Positions 9,752 to 49,607 of a stretch of 64,000 nucleotides of DNA are shown piece after piece; positions within the stretch are counted from its first letter, which is position 1; every line of letters starts with the position of its first letter. Source of the stretch: Sphingomonas bisphenolicum (GTDB taxonomy: Bacteria; Pseudomonadota; Alphaproteobacteria; Sphingomonadales; Sphingomonadaceae); NCBI RefSeq assembly GCF_024349785.1, contig NZ_AP018817.1:2697501-2761500 (forward strand), read 5' to 3'. The position numbers and the translations under genes are program-made. The notes under the pieces were generated by a model that saw only the letters and a program-made list of their open reading frames with translations, was not told the DNA's origin and searched no databases.

Positions 9752-9846
9752 ATGTCGGTGTGTCAGCGTGGGAGAATGGAGAATCCCGTTGCCTTCGGGT
9801 GGCGCTCGTTACGCGGGGTTGTAGGTTCGAATCCTACCTCTGGCTA
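9752..9846 (+). other. tRNA-like sequence, probably a tRNA remnant
   Basis: A perfect T-arm, GTAGG-TTCGAAT-CCTAC (9821-9837), is followed by CTCTGGC. Upstream, GTTGCC-TTCGGGT-GGCGCT could form an anticodon-like arm with a Pro-type CGG triplet and GGGA/TCCC a D-like arm. No clean seven-base partner for the acceptor strand is found (only about four of seven pairs form) and there is no CCA. I read it as a decayed tRNA or an old attachment site, not a working tRNA. Confidence 0.35.
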
Positions 9847-48395: not shown

Positions 48396-49199
48396 ATGGC
48401 CAGCGCGCCCGCCAACAACCTGCCGATCTTCTACAATGATCTCCTTCCGCTGAGCAGCGTGGACCATGTCGATTATCGCACCCGTCAGGTCGAATCGGCG
48501 CCGTTCCTGACGACGCAGCACGCCATTCCGCTGACGATCGACGAATTCGTCCCGGCCCAGCGCTTCGCCCCGATCATCTTTTCGGCCGGTGGCGATCCCG
48601 TGCCGCTGCTGCTGATGGGCCTCAACGAAGGCGTCAACACCTTCGTCGATGACGAAGGCAAGCTGCGCGGCCCGGCCTATGTCCCGGCCTATGTCCGCCG
48701 CTATCCCTGGATGCTGGCCAAGCTGCGCCCCGACAGCGAGGATCTGTCGCTCTGCTTCGACCCCACCAGCCCGGCGATCGGCGCGTTCGACGACGGCCAG
48801 CCGCTGTTCGAAGACGGCAAGCCCAGCGAACTGACGCAGGGGGTGATGAAGTTCTGCGAGGATTTCGAGCAGGCCGCGGCGCGCACCGGCCAGTTCGTCC
48901 GCGACCTGCAGGACATGGACCTGCTGATGGACGGTGAAGTCGCGATCCAGACCCCGGTCGCCGAACAGCCCTTCGTCTATCGCGGCTTCCGCATGATCAA
49001 CGAGGAAAAGCTGCGCGACCTGCGCGGCGACCAACTGCGCAAGATCAACCAGAACGGTATGCTGCCTTTGATCCACGCGCATCTTTTCTCGCTGCAGTTG
49101 ATGCGCGACATCTTCGAGGCGCAGGTCGGCCAGGGCAAAGGTCCGATAGCCCTTCCCGCCGCCGCGGCCGAGCCGGCATCGGAAGTGGCCGGCGCCTGA
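48396..49199 (+). CDS. SapC-family protein
   Basis: A 267-residue protein of the SapC family, named after an S-layer-associated protein but of uncertain function. Characteristic segments: LPLSSVDHVDYRTRQVESAP near 18, PIIFSAGGDPVPLLLMGLNE near 58, YVPAYVRRYPWML near 95 and FVYRGFRMINEEKLRDLRGD near 198. SapC genes often sit next to TonB-receptor/tryptophan-halogenase clusters in sphingomonads; none is visible here. I choose ATG 48396; a TTG seven codons earlier is possible. Confidence 0.85.
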   Translation: MASAPANNLPIFYNDLLPLSSVDHVDYRTRQVESAPFLTTQHAIPLTIDEFVPAQRFAPIIFSAGGDPVPLLLMGLNEGVNTFVDDEGKLRGPAYVPAYVRRYPWMLAKLRPDSEDLSLCFDPTSPAIGAFDDGQPLFEDGKPSELTQGVMKFCEDFEQAAARTGQFVRDLQDMDLLMDGEVAIQTPVAEQPFVYRGFRMINEEKLRDLRGDQLRKINQNGMLPLIHAHLFSLQLMRDIFEAQVGQGKGPIALPAAAAEPASEVAGA

Positions 49200-49256
49200 A
49201 CGAGAAATTAACCCGAAAGGGTTTGAAAAATTGATGGAAAGGGCATCGCATCCCCC

Positions 49257-49285
49257 TTGTAAGGCGATGCGACCTGCCCTATCTA
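49257..49285 (+). promoter_or_regulatory. Promoter of the small RNA candidate
   Basis: TTGTAA (49257-49262), a 17-base spacer, then TATCTA (49280-49285). Transcription is expected to start near 49291, exactly where the first stem of the RNA begins. Confidence 0.65.
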
Positions 49286-49290
49286 TCAAT

Positions 49291-49401
49291 CATGCGATGC
49301 ACCTGCCCCCCTTTCGGGTGTGTCGTATGGGCGCCTCCCCCTTTGGAGGCGTCTCCTCCCTGAACCTTGGCCACCCCATGCATCGCATGGGGTGGTTTTT
49401 T
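49291..49401 (+). ncRNA. Candidate small regulatory RNA with C-rich loops
   Basis: About 111 nt between sapC and tRNA-Glu. Stem 1 pairs 49291-49305 with 49315-49329 (15 base pairs including G-U) and shows loop CCCCCCTTT. Stem 2 pairs 49329/49331-49337 with 49346-49353 and has loop CCCCTTTG. An unpaired CTCCTCCC follows at 49353-49360, then a terminator with perfect ten-base arms CCACCCCATG/CATGGGGTGG and six Ts. C-rich loops and CUCCUCCC are anti-Shine-Dalgarno motifs, as in CcsR and related alphaproteobacterial trans-acting RNAs. No open frame fits. Family membership is inference; the structure is seen. Confidence 0.75.
49371..49401 (+). terminator. Terminator of the small RNA candidate
   Basis: CCACCCCATG-catcg-CATGGGGTGG followed by TTTTTT: a perfect ten-base stem with a five-base loop and six Ts. 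Confidence 0.92.
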
Positions 49402-49532
49402 ATGTGGGAAACCGGCGCATGTTCTGCATGAAATGGTTTTACAGGCCCCGGCGCAGACACGCCAGTTTCGCTTGACGCAGCCGGCAGCCATGCCTAAAGG
49501 CCACCCCCTGCCGACCGCCTAACGCGGTCCAT

Positions 49533-49607
49533 GGCCCCTTCGTCTAGCGGTTAGGACGCGGCCCTCTCACGGCTGAAACACGGGTTCGATTCCCGTAGGG
49601 GTCACCA
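49533..49607 (+). tRNA. tRNA-Glu (anticodon CTC)
   Basis: Complete cloverleaf of 75 nt including an encoded CCA. Acceptor GGCCCCT pairs with AGGGGTC (one G-U). D-arm region TCTAGCGGTTAGGA, anticodon loop CTCTCAC reading GAG, T-arm ACGGG-TTCGATT-CCCGT, discriminator A. Confidence 0.97.

Follow-up and report, generated by a model that had tools for sequence, protein, structure and literature searches.

A Conserved Small RNA Gene beside sapC in Sphingomonads, Very Probably a Diverged Relative of the SuhB/MmgR/SisA (Alpha-R8) RNAs

What kind of gene lies between sapC and tRNA-Glu in Sphingomonas bisphenolicum is the question raised by this locus. The window, which is the whole stretch of 64,000 nucleotides of contig NZ_AP018817.1 that was analyzed, was initially annotated from its sequence alone as containing a stand-alone small RNA gene with its own promoter, C-rich loops fit to pair with Shine-Dalgarno sequences, and a terminator. 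Our analysis supports that claim, and we conclude that the small RNA gene beside sapC is very probably real, deeply conserved in sphingomonads, and a diverged relative of the SuhB/MmgR/SisA (alpha-R8) RNAs. In all genus-level counts given here, the genus of the window copy is taken as Sphingobium. The gene and its neighbors are the following.

48396..49199, plus strand: sapC (PF07277), the upstream neighbor; Pfam score of 227 bits
49291..49401, plus strand: predicted 111-nt small RNA; fold z score of -7.17; ends inferred
49533..49607, plus strand: tRNA-Glu(CTC), the downstream neighbor; Rfam and ARAGORN; arrangement read as derived

Results

The interval from 49291 to 49401 is predicted to be strongly structured. 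Its fold energy was -62.7 kcal/mol, compared with -36.4 ± 3.7 kcal/mol for shuffled sequences (z score of -7.17), and none of 200 shuffles folded as low. A covariance model built from the genus-level copies (R1), the training set of which includes the window sequence, matched positions 49289 to 49404 with 141 bits. That no protein frame fits, as first proposed, holds only in part, as open reading frames of 51 to 70 amino acids overlap the RNA. Across 54 distinct copies from the genus, however, the RNA stretch is 111 or 114 to 119 nt long and varies in one-base steps, and thus a coding frame is an unlikely fit. At gathering thresholds, the sole Rfam match in the window was the tRNA. Elsewhere in the window, ARAGORN called a tRNA-Pro at 9762-9845 that was unreported by Rfam at its cutoff and is probably spurious.

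The predicted RNA consists of two hairpins, an open linker, and an intrinsic terminator. The elements below were assigned by folding and by comparison with A3, a mixed alignment of 41 sequences.

49291..49329, plus strand: SL1, a 15-bp hairpin with loop CCCCCCUUU, candidate anti-Shine-Dalgarno element 1; RNA fold and A3 covariation
49330..49353, plus strand: SL2, a 9-bp hairpin with loop CCCUUU; RNA fold and A3 covariation
49352..49361, plus strand: UCUCCUCCCU, counterpart of the alpha-R8 10-mer UUUCCUCCCU with one change; sequence comparison, with the 10-mer taken from the available text of PMC12559287
49354..49368, plus strand: open linker UCCUCCCUGAACCUU, anti-Shine-Dalgarno element 2; predicted unpaired and conserved in A3
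49369..49401, plus strand: intrinsic terminator, a 13-pair stem followed by a T-run; RNA fold and terminator scan

SL1 pairs positions 49291-49305 with 49315-49329, which confirms a 15-bp first stem and loop that start at the expected +1 (49291). SL2 pairs 49330-49338 with 49345-49353; its loop is CCCUUU, and the loop originally given, CCCCTTTG, leaves the stem with one pair less. The 15-nt linker (49354-49368) has a predicted probability of being open of at least 0.88, and thus the unpaired CTCCTCCC of the initial annotation is right except for its first C (49353), which is paired in the fold model. The terminator stem was read as 13 pairs, including G-U (49369-49381 with 49385-49397), and the six Ts previously noted are present at 49396-49401. 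Within A3, all 41 sequences have CCC or more in the SL1 loop and UCCUCCCU in the linker, and 40 of them have UCCUCCCUGAACC there.

The RNA appears to be preceded by a promoter of its own, and in the genus that promoter is embedded in an inverted repeat.

49257..49262, plus strand: -35 element TTGTAA; read directly, conserved in genus copies
49280..49285, plus strand: -10 element TATCTA; read directly, conserved in genus copies
49240-49254 and 49263-49280, no strand assigned: arms of an imperfect inverted repeat around the -35 box, a genus feature; fold and bridging pairs

The boxes and spacer of the proposed promoter, TTGTAA-17-TATCTA, were read directly, and their geometry recurs in 53 of the 54 distinct genus copies as TTG[A/T/C]AA with a spacer that is always 17 bases; the upstream DNA of the 54th copy (L097) was too short for the check. 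A promoter box was also found at the right distance in 49 of 54 further loci (L137-L190), of which 52 come from other genera and two (L139 and L140) from the same genus. The -35 element was TTGAAA in 42 of the 53 genus copies and in 25 of those 49 loci. Only agreement beyond TTG and TA is informative, because the search pattern, TTGNNN-(16-18)-TA, itself demanded both. A generic sigma-70 scan of the region returned no promoters, as TTGTAA and TATCTA match TTGACA and TATAAT weakly, and the putative promoter is called on the basis of its conservation.

The inverted repeat around the -35 box folds with a mean z score of -3.2 in the genus (below -2 in 42 of 53 copies) and -0.6 among L137-L190 (below -2 in 5 of 49). 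At least 8 pairs bridge the -35 box in 47 of 51 distinct genus segments, and the mean number of bridging pairs was 13.8, versus 10.9 (maximum 11.7 of 100) when halves were swapped between species. Single column pairs give little; three are listed, and one of these is near chance. The repeat may be a 3' hairpin of the sapC mRNA or a control element of the small RNA promoter.

Conservation of the element was determined first within the genus and then beyond it. By DNA search, the element was present in 35 of 37 genus genomes, and no match better than an E value of 0.007 was found in the other two (G002 and G026). The exact genus-type SL1 loop pattern occurred at 42 places in the genome collection, 40 in Sphingobium records and two in metagenome-assembled genomes (bacterium/Proteobacteria), which is why the genus was taken as Sphingobium. 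Thirty of the 35 genomes from the DNA search and the 42 loop-pattern places make up 72 genus loci, which are partly from the same species (L030 and L103 are the same record) and contain 54 distinct sequences. When these 54 were aligned with MAFFT, 98.3% of cells paired, and two-sided changes occurred at 10 of 37 pairs, in 43 cells compared with 8.9 in shuffles and 4 or fewer when partners were slid. Further pair types in that alignment (28) were not significant, being reached by 66 of 500 shuffles. Across the family, R1 matched 131 of 149 Sphingomonadaceae genomes, representing 87 of 96 genera and mostly with one match per genome, and 18 of the 149 had no match.

A3 combines the window sequence, 11 genus loci, and 29 loci (L137-L165, including the same-genus L139 and L140). 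Two-sided changes were found in A3 at 32 of 37 pairs, and in 281 cells compared with 78.8 in shuffles and only 59 in slid versions, in an alignment that was fitted to the covariance model, and is therefore biased towards it, and that draws on top-scoring R1 matches, such that weaker members may be less regular. Changes were two-sided at all 15 pairs of SL1, all 9 pairs of SL2, and 8 of the 13 terminator pairs. Covariation in other sphingomonads had been set beforehand as the check that could refute the RNA, and it was found both within the genus and in A3.

How the RNA is related to known families is indicated by Rfam model RF00519 (suhB). At a loose threshold, RF00519 matched positions 49332-49409 with 38.8 bits and an E value of 8.9e-7 for 301 bases, a score below the Rfam 15 gathering cutoff of 41 bits. 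None of 20 relatives scanned with RF00519 reached the cutoff; 15 gave no row at an E value of 0.001, and five scored 36 to 39 bits. Of the 131 R1-positive Sphingomonadaceae genomes, 37 were checked (two of them from the same genus), and all 37 had accepted RF00519 matches elsewhere while the R1 locus itself was below the cutoff or unlisted. The window genome has ten RF00519 matches at an E value of 1e-5 or better, seven of which are above the cutoff; the window copy shares eighth place. Apart from it, all nine matches are to short RNAs, and most of these contain the core GCCUUUCAGGCAUCCUCUCC.

A model built from A3 (R2) matched none of these nine short copies when searched at an E value of 1. 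It did match all 14 tested RF00519 loci of other families in the order (31 to 51 bits) and 123 of 147 genomes of the order with the family included. At the level of the class, it matched 46 of 190 genomes, including two from the family. Moreover, each of the eight new class-level R2 loci that were scanned carries RF00519 at or above the cutoff at the same place. The single-stranded alpha-R8 10-mer UUUCCUCCCU is replaced in the window by UCUCCUCCCU, the first two bases of which are paired in the fold, and the exact 10-mer occurs in 8 of 41 A3 sequences. The alpha-R8 hairpin upstream of the 10-mer is present as SL2, which covaries, and so is the Rho-independent terminator. As the Rfam cutoff and the exact 10-mer both failed, we call the RNA a variant that would work like alpha-R8 and that is putatively orthologous by locus.

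The locus itself has changed neighbors. Alpha-R8 RNAs are mostly found once per species and adjoin the gene for N-formylglutamate amidohydrolase (FGase; PF05013), according to the available text of PMC12559287, and an early description found that suhB was not bound to fixed neighbor genes (PMC1273637). Here, FGase was sought by tblastn on the fetched loci, and two of the proteins were Pfam checked. At 52 of the 54 loci L137-L190 (50 of the 52 from other genera), the RNA and FGase are no more than about 1.5 kb apart. In examined flanks, it was present at 10 and absent from 4 of 14 order loci, and present at 4 and absent from 4 of 8 class loci; it was beside none of 24 short SuhB-type copies. 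No FGase gene is found in the window, and tRNA-Glu is in its place. Among the 72 genus loci, for which flank lengths differ, the 66 with tRNA-Glu show no FGase in the fetched stretches and the six without tRNA-Glu have FGase, a mutual exclusion that points to replacement within the genus. From this comparison of loci, the window order sapC-RNA-tRNA-Glu looks derived from sapC-RNA-FGase, and the window RNA is best read as an orthologue of the FGase-locus alpha-R8 RNA.

The RNA and sapC are often, but not always, linked. The sapC gene is upstream at 70 of the 72 genus loci; at the other two, L097 and L119, hardly any upstream sequence is available. It is also no more than about 1.5 kb away at 47 of the 54 loci L137-L190, but the examined flanks of all 14 order loci, all 8 class loci, and all 24 short SuhB-type copies are without it. 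In genomes G061 and G221, sapC is elsewhere than the RNA, and in four genomes of g99 it is about 3 kb off. Conversely, a sapC homologue is kept in 17 of the 18 R1-negative Sphingomonadaceae genomes, the sapC loci of which gave no convincing RNA (best E value of 0.013). Thus, a function confined to sapC is unlikely, given that the RNA is kept where the linkage is lost and that sapC is kept where the RNA is missing. A literature search with the term SapC, largely without subscription papers, gave no sapC-linked small RNA among the matches listed. The sapC match of G061 (L226) carries one in-frame TGA.

The short SuhB-type paralogues of the window genome have upstream sequences of another kind. 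When 85 bases upstream were examined, eight of nine (L042, L061-L066, and L068) shared TTCGCANTTG[C/T], which precedes the Rfam match by about 35 bases (by 34 in one copy), and TTGCA/TGCAA elements were further up in seven of those eight. The motif is missing from the ninth (L069), and the promoter of the window copy is of another type. The motif was also in 12 of 15 short copies from other genus genomes. It looks like the mark of a common regulator or promoter class. Two weak R1/R2 matches of 26 to 30 bits in the window genome, G000 (L133, C1:1736813-1736915, minus strand; L134, C1:2811645-2811784, plus strand) contain CCTCCC(C)TGAA and C-rich stretches, L133 folds to a hairpin with a CCCCCC stretch, and both are possibly further small RNAs of this general kind.

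The linker and both loops are predicted to be unpaired, and their sequences complement purine-rich Shine-Dalgarno sites. With a generic site of this type, the linker gave the strongest predicted duplex (-10.6 kcal/mol), ahead of the loops of SL2 (-8.1 kcal/mol) and SL1 (-6.7 kcal/mol). When targets with long complementarity were sought with GTTCAGGGAGG and a nearby ATG, seven sites turned up in 6 of 37 genomes; the window genome had no such site, and the reversed-pattern control gave more. Two of the seven (L211, at an RF00519 locus in G048, and L212, at a weak R2 match in G041) fall on the opposite strand of such RNAs, and we therefore claim no target.

Discussion

How the RNA would act can be proposed from its relatives. 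We estimate at roughly 77% the probability that it is the Sphingomonadaceae counterpart of alpha-R8, that is, a trans-acting small RNA with its own promoter that represses translation by pairing of its linker or loop with Shine-Dalgarno sequences, probably with help from Hfq. What we observe of the RNA is its structure, its conservation, the geometry of its promoter, the history of its locus, and its relation to RF00519. Its transcription, its dealings with Hfq, its targets, and its physiology are inferred. Standing at what would be the ancestral place beside the FGase gene, the RNA would be transcribed from its own sigma-70-like promoter and would end at the intrinsic terminator. The open linker UCCUCCCUGAACC would then block the translation of several mRNAs by pairing at their Shine-Dalgarno regions, and the extra 5' hairpin would probably pair with such regions too through its C-rich loop. 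Hfq most likely assists repression. SisA, with Hfq, uses the 10-mer to repress a TonB-receptor mRNA and other targets (PMC12559287), and in Sphingopyxis thnR is repressed by SuhB with Hfq (PMC6563040). Judged from SisA and SuhB, plausible targets are genes of nutrient uptake and carbon use. AbcR1/2 are described in PMC8844928 as having two seeds, one in a loop and one in a linker, that are used independently of each other. By such analogies, our RNA would repress translation through one or two seeds.

Perhaps the sapC transcript runs into the RNA, the terminator of which would serve sapC as well, and the structured part is mainly the end of that mRNA or is processed out of it. The frequent presence of sapC upstream fits, as does the appearance, by eye, of a plain terminator-like hairpin after sapC in many R1-negative Sphingomonadaceae that have a sapC homologue. 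Moreover, three genomes without a sapC match (G002, G026, and G094, of which G026 is only 60% complete) are also without the RNA. A conserved promoter, however, separates sapC from the RNA, the RNA persists beside FGase in the genomes in which sapC is unlinked or 3 kb away, and sapC is missing from the examined flanks of related RNAs outside the family. We consider a sapC 3' untranslated region an improbable explanation. The downstream neighbor offers another, namely, that the RNA is a leader or attenuator of tRNA-Glu, which adjoins it on the same strand. We give this hardly any credence, as a terminator lies between the two, tRNA-Glu is missing at 6 of 72 genus loci that have FGase instead, and a motif search found no tRNA-Glu downstream in the 29 loci L137-L165.

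Two other families of anti-Shine-Dalgarno RNAs were weighed. The initial annotation invoked CcsR-type RNAs, and C-rich anti-Shine-Dalgarno loops and a linker, CUCCUCCC, that resembles CCUCCUCCC would suit a member of the CcsR/cuckoo/alpha-r14 type. No CcsR, cuckoo, or ar14 family, however, is in the Rfam tables for the locus, and CCUCCUCCC, said in the available part of PMC10746234 to be in every hairpin of alpha-r14, is absent from the hairpin loops, which are CCCCCCUUU and CCCUUU. Furthermore, CcsR-like loci have a DUF1127 gene as neighbor (accessible text of PMC10253847), whereas the RNA stands alone between sapC and tRNA-Glu. The CcsR link is thus extremely unlikely; the accompanying caveat that the RNA need not be of that family was sound, but the closest relative, alpha-R8 (RF00519), went unnamed. 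AbcR (alpha-r15) RNAs are very similar in layout and length, with three hairpins and two anti-Shine-Dalgarno motifs, of which the first is in the 5' loop and the second in an open linker. According to the parts at hand of PMC7143759 and PMC8844928, AbcR1 and AbcR2 are 120 and 114 nt long, with aSD1 in the 5' loop and aSD2 between SL1 and SL2, but the linker in the window comes after SL2. Moreover, RF02345 (ar15) has no match at the locus, and the best of its three weak matches in the genome, 15.8 bits, is elsewhere, such that an AbcR-type RNA is very unlikely. As membership claims, CcsR/cuckoo, AbcR, and the tRNA leader are rejected on the Rfam, RF02345, and tRNA-Glu/FGase exclusion evidence, respectively.

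A more elaborate form of the alpha-R8 reading is possible, and we offer it tentatively. The RNA could be a two-seed alpha-R8, with a near-invariant linker and an always-C-rich loop on a covarying 5' hairpin, that is kept in single copy under a simple promoter while short SuhB-type paralogues multiplied. The family would then be split into a housekeeping regulator missed by the Rfam model and a co-regulated set of paralogues, and in Sphingobium the inverted repeat around the promoter, which is retained in different species, might link transcription of sapC to the start of the small RNA.

Why the RNA deserves annotation follows from its distribution and its relatives. Sphingomonads are known pollutant degraders. 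In Sphingopyxis, a small RNA named SuhB controls a degradation pathway, as described in the available text of PMC6563040. The RNA of the window is present at about one copy per genome in 131 of 149 family genomes and yet falls just under the Rfam cutoff, such that the standard model narrowly misses it. Once annotated, it would be a defined regulator with two predicted seeds that, being single copy, can be deleted, and what the ancestral copy does would be separable from what the multiplied paralogues do. The locus may already be in the tables of the alpha-R8 distribution study of Lagares et al. 2016, which is cited in the accessible portions of PMC7143759 and PMC8401924.

Compared with known systems, the RNA shares anti-Shine-Dalgarno pairing elements in loops with CcsR/cuckoo RNAs (including NfeR1 and alpha-r14) but differs in lacking CCUCCUCCC in every loop, in lacking an Rfam match, and in having sapC and tRNA-Glu rather than a DUF1127 gene as neighbors. 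Like AbcR1 and AbcR2, it has on paper a 5' loop and a linker with anti-Shine-Dalgarno elements, a length near 114 to 120 nt, and three hairpins, but it has no covariance model match at the locus and its elements are ordered differently. The alpha-R8 systems compared were MmgR of Sinorhizobium, SisA-D of Caulobacter, and SuhB of Sphingopyxis granuli, the last tied to RF00519 by name only. Unlike these, the RNA scores below the Rfam cutoff, has UCUCCUCCCU instead of UUUCCUCCCU, extends the linker core to UCCUCCCUGAACC, and carries at its 5' end an additional hairpin of 15 bp, the loop of which is C-rich. Because of that hairpin, the 10-mer begins at nucleotide 62 of the predicted transcript, versus residues G33-C45 that cover the 10-mer in SisA (available text of PMC12559287). 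The extra hairpin is not unique in kind, as several relatives in the order and class also have one by eye, some with C-rich loops and others without. Like alpha-R8, the RNA runs from a hairpin through an open, CU-rich linker with UCCUCCCU to an intrinsic terminator, and in relatives it has the FGase-side locus. Moreover, R2 finds accepted RF00519 RNAs, and RF00519 in turn scores the window RNA significantly.
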